In this document: in pieces, positions 10,068-40,628 of the stretch
Layout: every line of letters begins with the position of its first letter
Numbering within the stretch: position 1 is the stretch's first letter
From: Thiohalocapsa sp.
GTDB lineage: Bacteria; Pseudomonadota; Gammaproteobacteria; Chromatiales; Chromatiaceae
NCBI GenBank assembly: GCA_021736785.1
Contig: JAIPFF010000021.1
Span: forward strand, 1 to 64,000
DNA: 64,000 nucleotides
Direction: 5' to 3'
Notes under the pieces: model-generated
Database searches by the model: none
What the model saw: only the letters and a program-made list of their open reading frames with translations
Told to the model about the DNA's origin: nothing
Translations under genes and position numbers: made by a program

Positions 10068-11528
10068 TTAGGCGCCGGCCATCTGGCGGGCCAGGTCAAG
10101 CGGGATCTGGTGGAACAGAAACAGGAGCACGGTCAAAGCGGCCGTCGCGGTCAGCGCGGCGACGATCGGCCAAGGCGCCTCGCCGTGCTCCGGGCCGCCG
10201 TTATCGCCGTCGCGCGCAAAGGCGCTGAAGACGATGGGCAGGAAATAGGCGGCATTGAGCACCGTGGACAACACCACGACACCCACCGCGACCCACTGCT
10301 CCATCGAGAATGCCCCCACCAGCAGGTACCACTTGGAGATGAAGCCCGCCGCCGGCGGCACGCCGATCATCGACAGCGAGCCGATGGTAAAGGCGGTCAT
10401 CGTCCACGGCATACGCCAGCCGATGCCGCGCAGTTGCGAGACCTCGGTCTTGTGGGCGGCCGTGTAGATGGCACCGGCGGCGAAGAACAGCGTGATCTTG
10501 CCGAACGCGTGGGCGGCGATGTGCAGCGCCGCGCCGACCACCGACAGCGGCGCCAGGATCGCGGCCGCCAGGATCACGTAGGACAGCTGGCTGACCGTCG
10601 AGTAAGCGAGACGACGCTTCAAATTGTCCTGCCGCAGCGCGATCACCGACGCGACGATGATGGTAAATCCGGCAGCATAGAGCAGCCATTGCGCCGAAGG
10701 CTCGGCCTGCAGCGTCTCCAGGCCGAACACATAGACGATGACCTTCACCACCGTGAACACACCGGCTTTGACCACCGCCACCGCGTGCAGCAGCGCGCTG
10801 ACAGGCGTCGGCGCCACCATCGCCGCCGGCAGCCAGCGGTGCACCGGCATCAGTGCCGCCTTACCGATGCCGAACATGAACAGGAACAGCAGTACACCGA
10901 CCAGCGGCCCGTCGAGATGCCCGGCCAGAATGCCGCCGTCGGTGAAATCCGTGGTACCGGCCGCGGACCAGGTCCAGACAATGGCGGGCAGCAGCAGGCC
11001 GATCGACGTGGCGATCAGAATACCCAGATAGACGCGGCCGCCATCCCGGGCGGCTTCGGTGCCCTTGTGGGTGACCAGCGGATAGGTGGAGAGGGTCAGC
11101 ACCTCGTAGAAGATGAACAACGTGACCAGGTTGGCCGAGAACGCGATACCCATCGCCGCCCACAGCGCGATCGCGAAGCAGACGTAGAAACGCGTCTGGT
11201 GCGACTCGTCGTTGCCGCGCATGTAGCCGATGGAATAGAGCGAATTGATCGGCCAGAGCAGCGATGCAACCAAAGCGAAGATCATGCCCAGCGGTTCGAC
11301 GCGAAAGGCAATGGCGATACCGGGCAGGATCTCGTCGAAGGCCCACTGCGGCCGTGCCCCGGCCAGTACGTCGGGCAGCAGGCTGAGCACCGCCGCGAGC
11401 AGCAGCAGCGCCGTCACCAGCGTGACACCCTCGCGCAGGTTCGGCGCCTTTCCGGCGATCGCGATAGCGGCCGCGCCGAGCAGCGGCACCGTCATCGCGG
11501 CGATGATGGCGATCTGGTCGGCACTCAT
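10068..11528 (-). CDS. mrpD: Mrp antiporter subunit D (second copy)
   Basis: NuoM/NuoN-like membrane subunit of 486 residues with about 14 predicted helices. The key Glu lies in FIFYEVLTLSTYPLVTHKG and the conserved loop is MPVHRWLPAAMVAPTPVSALLHAVAVVKAG, which contains the P-V-H-x-W-L-P and H-A-V-x-V-K signatures of proton-translocating antiporter modules. Its start overlaps the stop of the preceding mrpD by four bases. It acts in the cytoplasmic membrane with the other Mrp proteins to exchange Na+ for H+. Confidence 0.92.
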   Translation of the reverse strand: MSADQIAIIAAMTVPLLGAAAIAIAGKAPNLREGVTLVTALLLLAAVLSLLPDVLAGARPQWAFDEILPGIAIAFRVEPLGMIFALVASLLWPINSLYSIGYMRGNDESHQTRFYVCFAIALWAAMGIAFSANLVTLFIFYEVLTLSTYPLVTHKGTEAARDGGRVYLGILIATSIGLLLPAIVWTWSAAGTTDFTDGGILAGHLDGPLVGVLLFLFMFGIGKAALMPVHRWLPAAMVAPTPVSALLHAVAVVKAGVFTVVKVIVYVFGLETLQAEPSAQWLLYAAGFTIIVASVIALRQDNLKRRLAYSTVSQLSYVILAAAILAPLSVVGAALHIAAHAFGKITLFFAAGAIYTAAHKTEVSQLRGIGWRMPWTMTAFTIGSLSMIGVPPAAGFISKWYLLVGAFSMEQWVAVGVVVLSTVLNAAYFLPIVFSAFARDGDNGGPEHGEAPWPIVAALTATAALTVLLFLFHQIPLDLARQMAGA

Positions 11529-33232: not shown

Positions 33233-34297
33233 ATGGCAACCCAACCAACCCTGGGCGAGGTGCTTCAGAGCCAAGGCGTCAGCCGTCGCGCATTCATGAA
33301 ATTCTGCTCCGCGACGGCATCATTGATGGCGCTGCCGGCGGGCATGGGCGCCGCGATGGCGGAAACACTGGCCAGCGCAAAGCGTCCGTCGGTTATTTGG
33401 CTCTCTTTCCAGGAATGCACGGGCTGCACCGAGGCGCTGACTCGTTCGCACGCGCCGACCATCGAGGGGCTGATCTTCGATTTCGTTTCGCTGGATTACC
33501 ACCACACGCTGCAAGCCGCCTCCGGAGACGCCGCGGAGCATGCCCGCGAGCAGGCCCAGCACGACCATGCGGGGGAGTACCTCGTGCTGGTCGACGGGTC
33601 GATTCCGCTGATGGAGCACTGTTCGACCATCGCCGGCATCAGCAATGTGCAAATGCTCAAAGAGGCCTGCGCCGACGCCGCCGCGGTCATCAACATCGGC
33701 ACCTGCTCCGCTTACGGCGGCTTGCCGATGGCAAAGCCCAATCCCACCAACGCGGTCGCGGTCGGCGACATCATCACCGACAAGCCTATCGTCAACATCC
33801 CCGGCTGCCCGCCGATGCCTCTGGCCATTACCGGGGTCATCGCCCACTACCTGACCATGGGCGGCATGCCGGAACTGGACCACTTGGGCCGCCCGCAAGC
33901 GTTCTTCGGCGAGAACATCCACGACCGCTGTTATCGGCGCCCGTTCTACGACCGCGGCCAGTTCGCGGAGACCTTCGACGACGAGGGCGCCCGCAAAGGC
34001 TGGTGCCTGTACAAGCTCGGCTGCAAGGCCCCGACCACCTACAACGCCTGCGCGCACCTGAAGTGGAACAACGGTGTCAGCTTCCCGATCCAGTCCGGTC
34101 ACGGCTGCCTGGGCTGCTCGGAGCCCAACTTCTGGGACGCGCTGGCGGTGTACGACTCCCCGGCCAAAGGCCAGTTCGGCGACGGCGCCAAACTGGGTGC
34201 CGCAACCGTCGCCGGCGCGGCGCTCGGTGCCGGCGCAGCGGTGCTGGCGCGGCGCAAGAAGACGCGCATCGCGGAGGAAGAAGAGTCGGCGAGCTGA
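33233..34297 (+). CDS. hynS: [NiFe]-hydrogenase small subunit HynS
   Basis: Electron-transfer subunit of a membrane-attached group 1 uptake hydrogenase. The start at 33233 has AGGAGGG just upstream; an earlier in-frame start lacks one. The 354 residues begin with a Tat signal (GVSRRAFMKFCSATASLMAL). The proximal cluster motif is ECTGCTE (C62, C65). Further ligands lie in NIGTCSAYGG and NIPGCPP, then DRCYRRPFYDRGQFAE, LGCKAPTTYNACA and GHGCLGCSEPNFWD. The end is a hydrophobic tail anchor (LGAATVAGAALGAGAAVLA) with RRKK. The operon hynS-isp1-isp2-hynL places two redox genes between the subunits, as in Thiocapsa. Confidence 0.96.
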   Translation: MATQPTLGEVLQSQGVSRRAFMKFCSATASLMALPAGMGAAMAETLASAKRPSVIWLSFQECTGCTEALTRSHAPTIEGLIFDFVSLDYHHTLQAASGDAAEHAREQAQHDHAGEYLVLVDGSIPLMEHCSTIAGISNVQMLKEACADAAAVINIGTCSAYGGLPMAKPNPTNAVAVGDIITDKPIVNIPGCPPMPLAITGVIAHYLTMGGMPELDHLGRPQAFFGENIHDRCYRRPFYDRGQFAETFDDEGARKGWCLYKLGCKAPTTYNACAHLKWNNGVSFPIQSGHGCLGCSEPNFWDALAVYDSPAKGQFGDGAKLGAATVAGAALGAGAAVLARRKKTRIAEEEESAS

Positions 34298-34399: not shown

Positions 34400-35050
34400 A
34401 TGACTCTCCTGGAATTTGCGCGCGGACCGGCGATTCACGCATCGCTGATCATCCTCGTCGCCGGCAGCATGATCCGTCTCGTCGGCGTGCTTGCGTTGAC
34501 GCGGGGCGCGGACCTCTCGCGCCCGCGTGACGTGTTCGGCAACTTCAAGGGCTATCGCACCGTATTCAGCCGGGCCTGGCCCAGTGACGAGTTCACCATC
34601 GTGACCCGTTACCAAACCGCGATGGCCTATGTTTTCCATATCGCGACCCTGTTGGTCGTCGTCGCCATCGTGCCCCACATCGAGTTCATTACAAGCCTCA
34701 CCGGTCTGTCCTGGCCGGGCCTGCCGAACTGGATCGGCGTCGCGCTCGGCACCATCGCGCTGGTTTCGCTGATCGCGCTGATCATGCGCCGGCTCTCCAA
34801 GCCCGAGGTCTACAACTCGACCGTCGGCGACTACGTCACCTGGATCATCGTCGCCCTGCCGCTGATCACCGGCCTAATGGCCTTCGCCCATGTCGGCCTG
34901 CGCTACGAGACGATGCTGGCGCTGCATATCCTGAGCTCGGCGCTGTTGTTCGCCTACTTCCCGTTCAGCAAGCTGATGCACGCCTTCTGGTTCTTGTTCT
35001 CGCGCGCCCAGAGCGGCGTCGCCTATGCGCATAAGGGGGTCCGGATATGA
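34400..35050 (+). CDS. isp1: Isp1, cytochrome b-like membrane protein of the Hyn hydrogenase
   Basis: Isp1 is a b-type haem membrane protein (NarI/DsrM-like) linking the hydrogenase to the quinone pool. The 216 residues hold about five helices: positions ~13-32, ~75-95, ~110-130, ~150-170 and ~180-200. Candidate haem-ligand His residues lie in AYVFHIATLLVVV, MAFAHVGLRYE, LALHILSSALL and SKLMHAFWF. A GGAGG lies before the ATG. It overlaps isp2 by four bases. Confidence 0.92.
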   Translation: MTLLEFARGPAIHASLIILVAGSMIRLVGVLALTRGADLSRPRDVFGNFKGYRTVFSRAWPSDEFTIVTRYQTAMAYVFHIATLLVVVAIVPHIEFITSLTGLSWPGLPNWIGVALGTIALVSLIALIMRRLSKPEVYNSTVGDYVTWIIVALPLITGLMAFAHVGLRYETMLALHILSSALLFAYFPFSKLMHAFWFLFSRAQSGVAYAHKGVRI

Positions 35051-36459
35051 GCGCCCAGTTGGAAACGACACAGGTCTTCCCGAGCTTCGAGCAGGTCTAT
35101 CAGGGTCTCGCCGGACAGATCGGCATGCTGCGTCAAATGGCACCGGAACCGACCAAGTCCGAAGAGCGCCGCCTCGCCGGCGCCATCAATACGCTGGTGG
35201 AAGAGACCAACGCCGACGAAGCCGTCTGGCTGGAAAGCTGCATCCACTGCGGCCAGTGCACCACCGCCTGCCACTTCTTCCAGGCCACCGGCGAGGCCAA
35301 ATATGCGCCGATGCGCAAGATGGACCTCTACCGGCGCGTCTACCGGCGCGAGGTCAGCCCGCTGCGCTGGCTGTTCAAGCTTGCCACTCGCCCGGTCAAG
35401 CTGAAGGACTTCGAGGAAGCTCAAGAGCTGATCTACGACTCATGCTCCGAGTGCGGACGCTGCACGATGGTCTGCCCGATGGGCATCGACACCGCGTCGC
35501 TGGTTCATCACATGCGAAGCGCAATGGTCGCGGCGGAGTTGGTGCCGCCGGAGCTCTCGGCACTGCGCATGGAGCAGAAAAACGCCGGAACCGTGTTCGG
35601 CTCATCGCCGGAAACACTGAAGAAGATGATCGACACCATCCGCACGCATTACGGCGTCGAGATCCCGCTCGACCTGCGCGAGGCGGAGGTCATGGTGCTC
35701 AGTTCCGCGGTTGATCTGGTCGCCAACGGCAACGGCCTGCTGGCGACGGCCAGGATCATGAATCACATCGGCGTCGACTGGACGATTTGCTCCGACGGTT
35801 TCGAGAGCGCCAATTTCGGACTGCTCTCGGGCGATATGTCGCTTTGGAGGATGCAGGCCGACCCGATCGTCGCGGCCGCCCAGCGCATCGGCGCGAAGAC
35901 CCTGGTCATCGCCGAATGCGGACACGCCTATCCTGCACTGCGCTGGAACCCGATGCTGCGCAGCGGCGCCCTGCCGTTCGAAATGATGTACATGTCCGAG
36001 TTCCTGGGCAGGCAGGCCAAGGCCGGCAAGTTACGGTTGCGGCCGCTGGAGGGCAAGGTCACTTATCACGACCCGTGCAAGACGGGCCGGCGGGGCGGCG
36101 CCTTCGACGAGCCGCGGGCGGTGCTCAAGGCGCTCGGGGCCGACTTCGTCGAGCTGCCCGCCAACAAGGAATACAACTGGTGCTGCGGCGGCGGCGCGGG
36201 CATCTTCCTGCTCGAGGACGCCACCCGGCTGCGCGACGAGTCGTTCAAGATCAAGATCCGGGAGGTCAACGAAACCGGCGCCGAGGCGGTCGTGGTCAGC
36301 TGCGCCAGCTGCCGCCTCAACTTCGAGGCCGGCCGGCAAAAGAACCACTGGGACAAGCGCGTGGATAGCCTGGTCGAACTGGTCGCCGACCATCTGATCG
36401 ACGGCCCGACGCCGATCAGCGGCAAGAAAGCGGCGGACGCCGAAGGAGCCGTGGCATGA
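35047..36459 (+). CDS. isp2: Isp2, HdrCD-like iron-sulfur protein of the Hyn hydrogenase
   Basis: Cytoplasmic iron-sulfur partner of Isp1, similar to heterodisulfide reductase HdrD / DsrK. Two 4Fe-4S motifs are visible: C65-x2-C68-x2-C71-x3-C75 (ESCIHCGQCTTACHF) and SCSECGRCTMVCPMG near residues 131-143. Two CCG domains follow, with CGHAYPALRW in the first, and HDPCKTGR, NWCCGGGAG and CASCRLNFEAG in the second. It is 470 residues, coupled to both neighbours by ATGA overlaps. It probably carries electrons between the hydrogenase and a thiol/disulfide or quinone partner. Confidence 0.93.
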   Translation: MSAQLETTQVFPSFEQVYQGLAGQIGMLRQMAPEPTKSEERRLAGAINTLVEETNADEAVWLESCIHCGQCTTACHFFQATGEAKYAPMRKMDLYRRVYRREVSPLRWLFKLATRPVKLKDFEEAQELIYDSCSECGRCTMVCPMGIDTASLVHHMRSAMVAAELVPPELSALRMEQKNAGTVFGSSPETLKKMIDTIRTHYGVEIPLDLREAEVMVLSSAVDLVANGNGLLATARIMNHIGVDWTICSDGFESANFGLLSGDMSLWRMQADPIVAAAQRIGAKTLVIAECGHAYPALRWNPMLRSGALPFEMMYMSEFLGRQAKAGKLRLRPLEGKVTYHDPCKTGRRGGAFDEPRAVLKALGADFVELPANKEYNWCCGGGAGIFLLEDATRLRDESFKIKIREVNETGAEAVVVSCASCRLNFEAGRQKNHWDKRVDSLVELVADHLIDGPTPISGKKAADAEGAVA

Positions 36460-38186
36460 GCGCGCGCGTTGTTGTCGATCCCATTACCCGCATCGAAGGA
36501 CACCTGCGCATCGAGGCGCAAATGAACGGCGGCATCATCGAAGACGCGTTCTCGAGCGGAACGATGGTGCGCGGCATCGAGACCATCGTCCAAGGCCGCG
36601 ACCCGCGCGAGGTCTGGGCCTTCTCGCAGCGCATCTGCGGTGTCTGCACGCTGGTGCACGGCTTGGCGGCGGTGCGCGCCGTCGAAGATGCGCTCGATTG
36701 GAAGATCCCGCCCAATGCCGAGCTGATCCGCAATCTGATGGTCGGCTCCCAGTACGTGCACGACCATGTCATGCACTTCTATCACTTGCATGCACTGGAT
36801 TGGGTCGACGTGGTCTCGGCGCTGAAGGCGGATCCGAAAGCAACATCCGAACTGGCACAAAGCATCGGCGGTTCCGCCAAGTCGTCACCGGGCTACTTCT
36901 CCGATGTCCTGAAGAAGCTAAAGAGCTTCGTCGACAACGGCCAACTCGGCATCTTCGCCAACGGCTACTGGGGCCACCCGGCCTATCGGCTGCCGCCGGA
37001 GGCGAACCTGATGGCGCTGGCGCATTATCTGGATGCGCTGGCCTGGCAGCGCGATGTCTCCGAGCTGCACGCGATCTTCGGCGGCCGCAACCCGCATCCG
37101 AACATGTGCGTCGGCGGCATGCCCTGCGCCATCAGCCTGGACTCGGGCAAGCAGGCAGGCACGGCATTGGACGTGGTGGGCCTGGAACGGGTGCGCAACA
37201 CGATCGCGAAGATGCAGGAGTTCGTCCATCAGGTCTACGTACCCGACACGCTCGCCATCGCCGGCTATTACAAGGACTGGTTCAACAGGGGCGAGGCCGT
37301 CGGCAACTTCATGTGCTTCGGCGACTTCCCGGCCAAGGGCTTCGGCGATGCCGACAGCTACATGATCCCCGCGGGCGTCATCCTGAACCGGGATCTATCC
37401 CACATCGAGCCGGTCGACCTCGATGCCGAGGGCGAGATCCAGGAGTTCGTCTCCCGCGCCTGGTACGACTATGCCGAAGGCAAGGACGCCGGACTGCATC
37501 CGTACAAGGGTGAGACGGAATTCGCCTACACCGGCCCCGAGCCGCCTTACAAGCAGCTCGATGTGGACAACCAGTATTCGTGGCTGAAGTCGCCGCGCTG
37601 GCGCGGCAAGGCCATGGAGGTCGGCCCGCTGGCGCGCATGCTGATGCTCTACGCCAGCGGCGACGAGCAGGCGACCACAATGGTCGACTCGACGCTTGCG
37701 CAGCTCGAGCTGCCCATCGACGCCCTCTACTCGACCATGGGCAGAACGGCGGCGCGCGCCCTCGAGACGGCGATCATGGTGGATGCGCTGTCGGGTTGGT
37801 ACGACAACCTGCTGGCCAATATCAAGGCCGGCGATACCAAGACGTTCAACGAACAGTACTGGGATCCGCGCACTTGGCCGCAACGGTCCCAGGGTGTCGG
37901 GCACATGGAGGCGCCGCGTGGCGCGCTCGGCCACTGGATCGTCATCGAAGACGGCAAAACAGCCAATTACCAAGCAGTCGTGCCCAGCACTTGGATGGCC
38001 GGGCCGCGAGACGCTCAGAACCAAAAGGGTCCCTACGAGGCTGCACTGGCGGGTCATACGCTGCACGATCCCGATCAGCCGATCGAGATCCTGCGCACGA
38101 TCCACAGTTTCGACCCCTGCATCGCGTGCGCGGTGCATCTGACCGACCCGAATGGCGAGGAGGTACTCAGCGTCAACGTGCGATAG
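36456..38186 (+). CDS. hynL: [NiFe]-hydrogenase large subunit HynL
   Basis: Catalytic subunit carrying the Ni-Fe centre. The 576 residues have both cysteine pairs: C61-x2-C64 (QRICGVCTLVHG) and C555-x2-C558 (DPCIACAVH). The C-terminal 15 residues after H561 (LTDPNGEEVLSVNVR) are the peptide removed by a HynD-type protease on maturation. The N-terminus VVVDPITRIEGHLRIE is typical. No maturation genes (hyp, hynD) are in the window. Confidence 0.97.
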   Translation: MSARVVVDPITRIEGHLRIEAQMNGGIIEDAFSSGTMVRGIETIVQGRDPREVWAFSQRICGVCTLVHGLAAVRAVEDALDWKIPPNAELIRNLMVGSQYVHDHVMHFYHLHALDWVDVVSALKADPKATSELAQSIGGSAKSSPGYFSDVLKKLKSFVDNGQLGIFANGYWGHPAYRLPPEANLMALAHYLDALAWQRDVSELHAIFGGRNPHPNMCVGGMPCAISLDSGKQAGTALDVVGLERVRNTIAKMQEFVHQVYVPDTLAIAGYYKDWFNRGEAVGNFMCFGDFPAKGFGDADSYMIPAGVILNRDLSHIEPVDLDAEGEIQEFVSRAWYDYAEGKDAGLHPYKGETEFAYTGPEPPYKQLDVDNQYSWLKSPRWRGKAMEVGPLARMLMLYASGDEQATTMVDSTLAQLELPIDALYSTMGRTAARALETAIMVDALSGWYDNLLANIKAGDTKTFNEQYWDPRTWPQRSQGVGHMEAPRGALGHWIVIEDGKTANYQAVVPSTWMAGPRDAQNQKGPYEAALAGHTLHDPDQPIEILRTIHSFDPCIACAVHLTDPNGEEVLSVNVR

Positions 38187-38298
38187 CACGCATGAGGGGG
38201 CTGCCTATGCAGCCGCGGCCGGCGCGCGGGCGACGATCCCAAAACAACTACCGGCCCGCGCGCAGGCCGTTCACAACTGCCAAAGGAGGAATTGAACC

Positions 38299-38613
38299 GT
38301 GATTTCGCAGGTAAAATTGGCCGAGCTCCATGTCAAGGCGTTCCTATCGCAACAGAAGCGCCAGGATGAGTTGAACGAGCAACAATGCGCCCACCACACC
38401 GGCAACTGCGGTTGCACCCCCGAGACCGAGCAGGACGACACCTGGCGGCAGGCCGCCATCAACTGCGCGGGCCCGTTGTGCATCATCGATGCAATTGCCC
38501 AGGCCGAAGAGAGTTGGGTCGAACTGTTCGAGCATGCCCCGCGCTGCAAGCTGCCCCGCTCGGATGAAGACAGCACCCCGGCTCAACGCCGCTTGGTGCC
38601 GCGGCTCGCTTGA
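38299..38613 (+). CDS. Cysteine-rich small protein downstream of hynL, unknown
   Basis: A 104-residue protein starting with GTG at 38299, with an excellent AAAGGAGGA ribosome site eight bases upstream. It has a helical N-terminus, then QQCAHHTGNCGCTPE (Cys-x6-Cys-x-Cys with two His), then INCAGPLCIID (Cys-x5-Cys) and a final PRCKLPRS. Six Cys and two clustered His suggest binding of an Fe-S cluster or zinc. No signal peptide is present. It is 112 bp after hynL on the same strand and the next gene is convergent, so it is probably the last gene of the operon. I do not recognise a family. Confidence 0.75.
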   Translation: MISQVKLAELHVKAFLSQQKRQDELNEQQCAHHTGNCGCTPETEQDDTWRQAAINCAGPLCIIDAIAQAEESWVELFEHAPRCKLPRSDEDSTPAQRRLVPRLA

Positions 38614-38698: not shown

Positions 38699-39775
38699 TC
38701 AGTGTCGCCGCCCTTTCGGCGGCGGAGATATGGAGCCGGGCAGGCGCAGCGTGACGCGGATCGGGTGGTGGTCGGACGGGGGTGGCTCGGTGTCATAGCC
38801 GATTGCGGCATAGCTGCGATGCAACACCCAGTCCTTCGCCTCGCCGCCGAAGACGAAATGATCGATGGCGAACGGATAGCGCGGGTTATAGGGGAACGGG
38901 AAGGGTCGGCCCGCGTTGGCGAGGGTCAAGTCGGCATCCCCGTCGCGCACCTCGGTGCCTTCGATGCAGCGGCGCCCGAGTGCATCGTGGGTGCGCCAGC
39001 GGCAGATCATGCCGTCGTCGATGGCGGCCCAGAAGTCGTCTTCGGGCTGGTCCAACTGGCGGTTGAAATCGCCGAGCAGCACGAAGGGCGCATCGGCTCG
39101 GGCCCGGTCGTCGATCCATGCCTCCAGAATGCCCCGCTGCCGGCGCAGTTCCAAACACTGCGCGCGGCGTATTTTGCGCACTCGGTCATCGCCGCCGAGA
39201 CGGCCCCAGGCACACCCCGATTTCAGGTGCAGCGAGACTAATTCCAGCGCCTCGAACCGATCGCCGCCCGAAAGCCCCGCGCTCGGCTCGAGCAGAATCC
39301 GCACCGCCCAGCGCCGGCGCTCGAGGCCGATCGCCTCGAACGCGGGCAGCACCCGATAACGCAATCCCGATGCGGCCATCCGCGATCGATTGACGGCAAA
39401 GCCGGTACGCAGCGCCGTGAGACGCTGCCCCGGCATGCCGCGGCACGGCGACCGACCGCGAACCCGCCGCTCGGAGACGACGATATCGTAGATCGCGGGA
39501 TCGAAGATCCGGGCCACGGCGCGGTCGTTTTCGACCTCCTGCAGCGCCACGATGTCGGCATCGAGCCGCTGCGCGCTCTCGCGCAGGAGCGCGTAGTCCG
39601 CATCCGTGCGCGGGCGGCAGCCATCTCCGTTACGCTCGGCCAGATGCTGAAGATTCCAACTTCCCAACCTCAGGTGTGTCGCGGCTTCGCCTTGCGTACA
39701 GCCGCTCAAGACCAGCGCCATCGCCGCGACGCACCAGCCGAACCGCCTCCGCACCGCCACCCTTTTCGAGTGCAT
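38699..39775 (-). CDS. EEP-family phosphodiesterase, lipoprotein
   Basis: A 358-residue endonuclease/exonuclease/phosphatase. I place the start at 39775 because it gives a lipoprotein signal (RFGWCVAAMALVLSGCTQG, lipobox LSGC); upstream codons in frame have no meaning. Core motifs are GSWNLQHLAE (Asn), IVALQEVEND (Glu), VSLHLKSGC (His), LLGDFNRQLD (Asp, Asn), and the final PPSDHHPIRVTL (Asp-His). It would act in the periplasm or on the outer membrane, on nucleic acids or phosphoesters. It is not close kin of the cytoplasmic EEP at 18446. Confidence 0.88.
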   Translation of the reverse strand: MHSKRVAVRRRFGWCVAAMALVLSGCTQGEAATHLRLGSWNLQHLAERNGDGCRPRTDADYALLRESAQRLDADIVALQEVENDRAVARIFDPAIYDIVVSERRVRGRSPCRGMPGQRLTALRTGFAVNRSRMAASGLRYRVLPAFEAIGLERRRWAVRILLEPSAGLSGGDRFEALELVSLHLKSGCAWGRLGGDDRVRKIRRAQCLELRRQRGILEAWIDDRARADAPFVLLGDFNRQLDQPEDDFWAAIDDGMICRWRTHDALGRRCIEGTEVRDGDADLTLANAGRPFPFPYNPRYPFAIDHFVFGGEAKDWVLHRSYAAIGYDTEPPPSDHHPIRVTLRLPGSISPPPKGRRH

Positions 39776-40073
39776 CGCAACACCCTGTGCGGATCTCATT
39801 CGCCGGCACGCCGATGACAACGGCTCGCGCACCCGGCCGGATGACGGCGCATTGCAGACAAACATCGGTCGGCACGCCGGGCAAGCCTCGCCTGCCCCCG
39901 CCGCTTCGCTATGATTAGCCACCCGTGTTCCCGGTTCAATCATCGGACCGTGAGCTCCAACCGAGCGGCAGCCGCCCGTCGGCACATCGCGGCATCGGAT
40001 GACACGCGGTGCGGCCCGTCCGATGCGCCGCGACACCACCCGATGACGATTCCACCACAGTACTGGAGGCCAT

Positions 40074-40628
40074 TTGGACCTCGACGGACGCACGCTCCTG
40101 GTTGCGGCATCGCTGACCTCCATCCTGCTCGCGATGCTCGTGCTCCACGTTCGCCGCTGGCTCGGCAAATCGATACACGGGCTTGGCTGGTGGGCAGCGG
40201 CCGTCATACTGCTCACCGGGTCCACCTTGCTGCTCGCCGACCTCGACCGCTTCAAAGCTATCAACGATACCCACGGCCACGGTGTCGGAGACCGCGCGCT
40301 GAAGGCGTTTGCCGATGTCGCCTCCGCGCAGATCCGCGACGGCGACCTGTTCGCTCGCCACGGCGGCGAGGAGCTCGTCGTCTTGCTGCCCGGCACCGGG
40401 CATCAGGAGGCCCGAGCGATCGCCGAGCGCATCCGTGCGGCCACCGAAGCCGCCATCATCGACGGCCCGGAAGGCAAGCCCATCCGTCTCAGCGTCAGCA
40501 TCGGCGCAGCTTCGGCGCTGCCGGGCTCACGGGCGGCGGTTCACCTCGATCCCCTACTGCGCGACGCCGACCGCGCCATGTACCGCGCCAAGGAAAGCGG
40601 CCGCAACCGTGTCGTCGGCCCGTCCTAG
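40074..40628 (+). CDS. Internally deleted GGDEF-type diguanylate cyclase
   Basis: A 184-residue remnant with a TTG start at 40074 and a GGAGG just upstream. The N-terminus has two membrane helices (about 8-26 and 39-55). It then passes directly into the middle of a GGDEF domain: LLLADLDRFKAINDTHGHGVGD, then RHGGEELVVLLPGTG (GGEEL signature), then the closing ADRAMYRAKESGRNRV. The start of the GGDEF fold (D-x-L-T-x-L-x-N-R-R) and any linker or sensor are missing, as if a deletion joined a membrane domain to the rest in frame. The enzyme is probably inactive or altered. It looks like a decaying gene. Confidence 0.75.
   Translation: MDLDGRTLLVAASLTSILLAMLVLHVRRWLGKSIHGLGWWAAAVILLTGSTLLLADLDRFKAINDTHGHGVGDRALKAFADVASAQIRDGDLFARHGGEELVVLLPGTGHQEARAIAERIRAATEAAIIDGPEGKPIRLSVSIGAASALPGSRAAVHLDPLLRDADRAMYRAKESGRNRVVGPS

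Follow-up and report, generated by a model that had tools for sequence, protein, structure and literature searches.

A small gene lies directly behind the large-subunit gene hynL of an Isp-linked [NiFe] hydrogenase operon in Thiohalocapsa sp., and we asked whether this gene, here called X, is real, whether it belongs to the hydrogenase and what its product might do. The window, that is, the whole stretch of 64,000 nucleotides that was analysed, carries X at positions 38299..38613 of the plus strand. An earlier note on the letters alone had proposed a Cys/His-rich protein with an Fe-S cluster, a role in cluster transfer or electron transfer with Isp2.

In the available excerpts of previous reports, Isp1 is a b-type cytochrome and Isp2 is set in the context of the DsrM/DsrK- or heterodisulfide reductase-like family (PMC10892978, PMC5944118, PMC3368242). 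Allochromatium vinosum possesses four [NiFe] hydrogenases, of which the excerpt of PMC3368242 pairs HydSL alone with Isp-type genes; the electron acceptor of Isp2 in purple sulfur bacteria appears, in the available part of PMC5944118, as proposed rather than settled. No gene behind hynL is named in the excerpts of PMC3102683 and PMC3325256, and a literature survey by titles and beginnings of abstracts, with subscription journals mostly outside it, returned nothing on an hynL-adjacent X or on two Isp types. As far as these sources and the family databases go, the small unnamed protein of the hynL operon stands as new.

The window operon as a second Isp-type hydrogenase

All four structural genes lie on the plus strand. 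The small subunit is encoded by hynS (33233..34297; TIGR00391, 418.8 bits, with relatives in the PDB), whose ORF opens at GTG 33173 and whose likely start is the ATG at 33233, preceded by a ribosome site. Next comes isp1 (34400..35050), for a membrane b-type cytochrome resembling NarI, TmcC and HmcE, with a PF02665 match of 32 bits against a gathering score of 22.9 and an NF045723 (TmcC) match of 112 bits, below the cut-off of 240. The product of isp2 (35047..36459) is a DsrK/HdrD-like Fe-S protein with a PF02754 CCG match of 54.1 bits and Fer4 domains above cut-off; its best NCBIfam match is NF045796 (DsrK), at 221.1 bits and below the cut-off of 400. The large subunit follows as hynL (36456..38186; PF00374, 760.5 bits), with 3myr_B as the closest solved chain.

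By protein comparison, this operon is a second, paralogous Isp-type [NiFe] hydrogenase of its genome. The other hynS-isp1-isp2-hynL set lies on another contig (G000:C96, L110 4801-9692), and its proteins are 68 % (HynL), 32 % (Isp1) and 33 % (Isp2) identical to those of the window. The L110 copy is the nearer of the two to 3myr, which we take to be the A. vinosum enzyme: its HynL scores 1078.9 vs 934.6 bits against 3myr_B, and its HynS, over only the matched 305 residues, 514.5 vs 438.2 bits against 3myr_A. Both Isp types also occur in G151 and G009, so that they coexist in at least three genomes. In a HynL tree, a branch with support 100/99 separates the four copies of the other type from 29 window-type copies.

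The HydSL/HynSL-Isp1-Isp2 systems of A. vinosum and Thiocapsa share the gene order hynS-isp1-isp2-hynL with the window and, as far as the excerpts of the published accounts go, a b-cytochrome-like Isp1 and a DsrK-like Isp2. Unlike that published type, the window operon is a paralogue, and X turned up with the window type alone: none of the three other-type operon regions (L109, L110, L111) contains it. Among at least 29 window-type operons, a lower bound from the best 30 HynL matches in an order where HynL is matched in 157 of 210 genomes, 19 carry X and 10 do not; since these ten operons do without it, X is not indispensable. X is present in both main window-type branches (supports 98/94 and 92/86), and its distribution takes at least four label changes on the tree. 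Such a history would fit an early gain followed by several losses, with transfer possible. The isp1 match in one metagenome-derived locus (L004, 1817-2314) spans just 166 residues, perhaps through a frameshift or an assembly error.

X is a genuine gene linked to hynL

The reading frame of X specifies 104 amino acids from a GTG start at 38299, on the hynL strand and 112 bases behind the hynL stop. The strong ribosome site that the earlier note had claimed is indeed there, as AAAGGAGG at 38282..38289 (plus strand), and all 19 genomes compared have a GGAG- or GAGG-type site ahead of the start chosen for X. The gap between hynL and X measures 106-126 bases in 17 of these 19 genomes and 198 and 208 in the other two; inspection by eye of the 19 gaps revealed no conserved element other than the ribosome site. 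A terminator scan of the plus strand from X to 38900 found no terminator-like site.

X is more than a chance ORF, because orthologues occur in 20 of the 210 genomes of the order and the dN/dS values lie between 0.03 and 0.34 (11 chosen pairs, two of them with dS >1.3, near saturation). A protein search of the order matched 23 of the 210 genomes at E 0.01 or better; three weak matches (G082, G083 and G106, E 0.004-0.007) were left out of the orthologue count, and the remaining 20 reached E 1.2e-10 or better. The same 20 genomes were recovered by a profile search at E 2.6e-21 or better. Relatives with a name are a Thiohalocapsa MAG and Halochromatium salexigens DSM 4395. The alignment of 19 orthologues (A1 hereafter), without L023 (G117), whose N-terminus is not recognisable with a start near the contig edge, and without L004 and L006, taken as duplicate contigs of L008 and L003 on account of their equal lengths and proteins, shows two conserved segments: an N-terminal LAELHxxxF..QDE and a C-terminal AGPLxxxDAxxQxxESWVELFEHAPRCxLP, with LAExHxRE and AGPxxxxDxxxQxxExxxExxExAPxCxL as consensus across the orthologues.

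Linkage to the hydrogenase held wherever it could be read. The gene directly upstream of X is hynL in 19 of the 20 genomes, that is, in all orthologues with a readable upstream side, and for the twentieth (L023) almost nothing of the contig precedes X. The complete order hynS-isp1-isp2-hynL-X was found in 15 of the 16 operons compared, the sixteenth having been chosen for its lack of X.

Outside these orthologues, a second place in the window genome reached E 0.06 (36 % over 44 residues), and plasmid records gave a single weak match at E 0.5. In searches that score only the best first-look candidates of each genome, so that misses are possible, a class sample gave, the own genome apart, matches in 15 of 369 genomes, all of the A2 type described below by eye (best E 3.1e-10), and a phylum sample none in 398 at E 0.001 besides the own genome. 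Fourteen Isp operon regions outside the order, of which 12 show sequence behind hynL (hynL goes unmatched in L150 and is cut off by the end of L151), contained no ORF of at least 50 amino acids matching A1 or A2 at E 0.01.

Genes at the operon end

A DUF302-type gene stands behind X in 10 of the 20 genomes (Pfam match from the L003 copy, 10422-10805). At this place the window has an ORF on the minus strand (38699-40396) with an endonuclease/exonuclease/phosphatase domain (PF03372, from 38699-39637) that converges on the operon end, and a 78 % relative of the DUF302 gene lies on a different contig of the window genome. DUF302 recurs in 9 of the 16 operon regions, and inspection by eye of ORF clusters, antisense shadows included, showed no other flanking gene with so wide a spread. 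Two Isp operons outside the order encode a probable coiled-coil protein next after hynL (L149 6093-6455, L153 3065-3442). The L149 protein has a near-threshold match to V-ATPase subunit G (E 8.1e-6; 26.8 bits against a cut-off of 28), and that of L153 has a weak DivIVA match (E 0.0012, below cut-off).

X as a divergent branch of a helical protein family

The earlier impression that X is not a known Hup/Hyn maturation factor is borne out by the databases: the window protein has no match in Pfam or NCBIfam at E up to 1, its 19 orthologues have no relevant one, and X thus falls into none of the hydrogenase maturation or chaperone families represented there. An X profile found no solved chain among PDB sequences at E up to 1, and no relative of known function emerged from Pfam, NCBIfam or the PDB profile search.

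Profile comparison nevertheless identifies X as a divergent, operon-bound branch of an uncharacterised family of helical proteins of about 100 residues, scattered in Gammaproteobacteria. The ORFs that the X profile matched weakly elsewhere mostly encode about 100 residues and show both conserved segments in unchanged order. We aligned them as A2, an alignment without accession that leaves out loci with long predicted starts (L052, L094, L095, L097 and L099) and duplicates (L101-L108). Compared by hhalign, A1 and A2 are related with a probability of 99.4 % (E 5e-21), the similarity covering both segments in order. All 19 X proteins score 30.1-58.8 bits against the A2 profile, compared with at most 11.7 for 950 shuffled and 5.4 for reversed X sequences; conversely, 19 A2 proteins score 23.5-56.7 bits against the X profile, where 950 shuffles reach at most 9.1. 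Of the 20 genomes with X, a genome-wide search with the A2 profile recovered it in eight (E 1.5e-9 to 3.3e-6) and, at E 1e-5, missed it in 12, the window genome among them.

In A2, an N-terminal LxEQHIREYESRLKHxDEL and a C-terminal AGPMxIWDxxAQxLExLxER align in order with X, whereas the hhalign alignment shows a middle segment longer by about 20 residues, the APRCxL extension at the C-terminus is absent by eye, and no hyn or isp match appeared in the stretches compared (about 3 kb; about 1.5 kb per side at most). The profile search of the order pointed to 11 further genomes; two of these stayed outside A2, G041 (E 0.019, with internal stops) and G092 (with 24 positions), and the nine with a clear A2 member do not overlap the 20 genomes with X.

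Three of six A2 members tested resemble the sll1863 family stress response proteins (NF052504) weakly, at E 1.8e-4, 0.0082 and 0.08, all below the 35-bit cut-off. X differs in this respect, none of the 19 orthologues matching NF052504 at E up to 1, let alone above its curated cut-off of 35 bits.

A single invariant cysteine

The window protein contains six cysteines (30, 37, 39, 56, 61 and 83) and two adjacent histidines (32 and 33), as had been noted, although the second cysteine pair is spaced C-x4-C (56, 61) and not C-x5-C. Among the 19 orthologues, Cys83 (codon 38545..38547, plus strand; within the X-specific motif APRCxL) is retained in every protein, C61 in nine, C56 in six, C30 in four, C39 in three and C37 in one. 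The adjacent histidines fare no better, His32 being kept in one orthologue and His33 in two, and the best-kept ones are H11 (15/19) and H79 (14/19). The Cys/His pattern of the window protein is hence nearly private to this genome, and five of the six cysteines are not conserved. With one invariant cysteine and no invariant histidine, X has no conserved cluster site and no conserved metal-binding Cys/His set across its orthologues, which leaves the suggested cluster, cluster transfer and electron carriage unsupported.

A tentative role in assembly or docking

A low-confidence AlphaFold model of X from a three-row alignment (mean pLDDT 59, pTM 0.27) places helices at 4-34, 45-56 and 58-79, together with a loose tail. 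The product is probably soluble and cytoplasmic, judging by the lack of any hydrophobic stretch to the eye, and no signal sequence is evident on inspection.

We tentatively favour, at somewhat less than even odds, a reading of X as a non-metal helical accessory protein dedicated to the second type of Isp-linked [NiFe] hydrogenase. X and the A2 family, which has no visible hydrogenase link, share an ancestor; X has the C-terminal extension with its one invariant cysteine and would have joined the operon early, before the two main window-type branches split, unless later transfer spread it. It would bind protein and not metal, its N- and C-terminal helices may form a cytoplasmic hairpin, and this hairpin could help complex assembly or docking, the HynL precursor or Isp2 being its likeliest partner. 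Across 15 operons, the evolutionary distances of X correlate with those of Isp2 (r 0.88, partial 0.37), HynL (0.86, partial 0.27), HynS (0.82, partial 0.03) and Isp1 (0.55, partial -0.04, with the short L004 match), correlations that are purely descriptive and are no proof of contact. Columns changing with the loss of X numbered 0 in Isp2 and 0 in HynL, a comparison of little power in which the chance means are 0.26 and 0.18.

Of the alternatives, the one that survives best, though we consider it unlikely, is that X is an sll1863-like protein of the stress type that was carried along and is merely co-expressed, having no contact with the hydrogenase. The weak sll1863 resemblance of half of the A2 members tested points this way, as does the behaviour of Sll1863 itself, a general stress protein whose inactivation caused no salt-sensitive phenotype (an unpublished result cited in the available part of PMC8670252). 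The failure of all 19 X proteins to match that family speaks against it, however, as does the retention of the hynL linkage in two branches of the HynL tree.

Less probable again is a partnership in thiol redox or sulfur chemistry, in which, on the model put forward for DsrC and the published Isp complex, Cys83 would form a persulfide or mixed disulfide for the HdrD/DsrK-like site of Isp2 to reduce or oxidise. Several observations suit this idea: Cys83 is the only cysteine invariant in 19/19 orthologues, its motif is absent from the wider A2 family in the alignment by eye, DsrK is the best NCBIfam match of Isp2, X distances track Isp2 best, and an electron path from Isp to DsrC is proposed in the excerpt of PMC5944118. 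Yet X matches no family, and hence no DsrC model; a lone cysteine may be structural; and ten of the 29 window-type operons manage without X. We regard as a long shot the fuller version, in which X would be a thiol carrier or adaptor dedicated to the DsrK-like Isp2 of this second Isp hydrogenase class. Through Cys83 it would link H2 oxidation in the periplasm with sulfur chemistry in the cytoplasm, and a helical protein would thereby have arrived independently at a role like that of DsrC.

Improbable, too, and more so than the basic thiol partnership, is a role in chaperoning the HynS precursor at its Tat signal, which would make X, presumably, a functional analogue of HyaE/HybE/HoxO/HoxQ-type proteins. 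HynS does bear a Tat-like signal (TAT_signal_seq of NCBIfam, E 0.013, with 15.8 bits against a cut-off of 16.7), and the apparent lack of a signal sequence in X would suit a chaperone, but the partial correlation between X and HynS distances is just 0.03 and X has no match to the families of such chaperones in Pfam or NCBIfam. Most improbable of all is the original proposal of an Fe-S protein or electron carrier: six cysteines are present in the window protein itself, but each of five is absent from 10 to 18 of the 19 orthologues, no Fe-S family in Pfam or NCBIfam is matched, and the cysteine pattern is missing from A2 by eye. We reject this reading on the conservation of Cys and His among the orthologues.

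Implications

According to the available part of PMC3102683, attempts to obtain heterologous activity of the Thiocapsa Hyn enzyme with the known accessory set did not succeed, and unrecognised accessory genes are of practical interest for this reason. That enzyme could well belong to the other Isp type, and the failure may have nothing to do with X. X, a conserved gene without a name that closes one class of Isp operons, provides a testable candidate for the question of the electron acceptor of Isp2, and telling the two Isp hydrogenase types apart within one genome helps their annotation.
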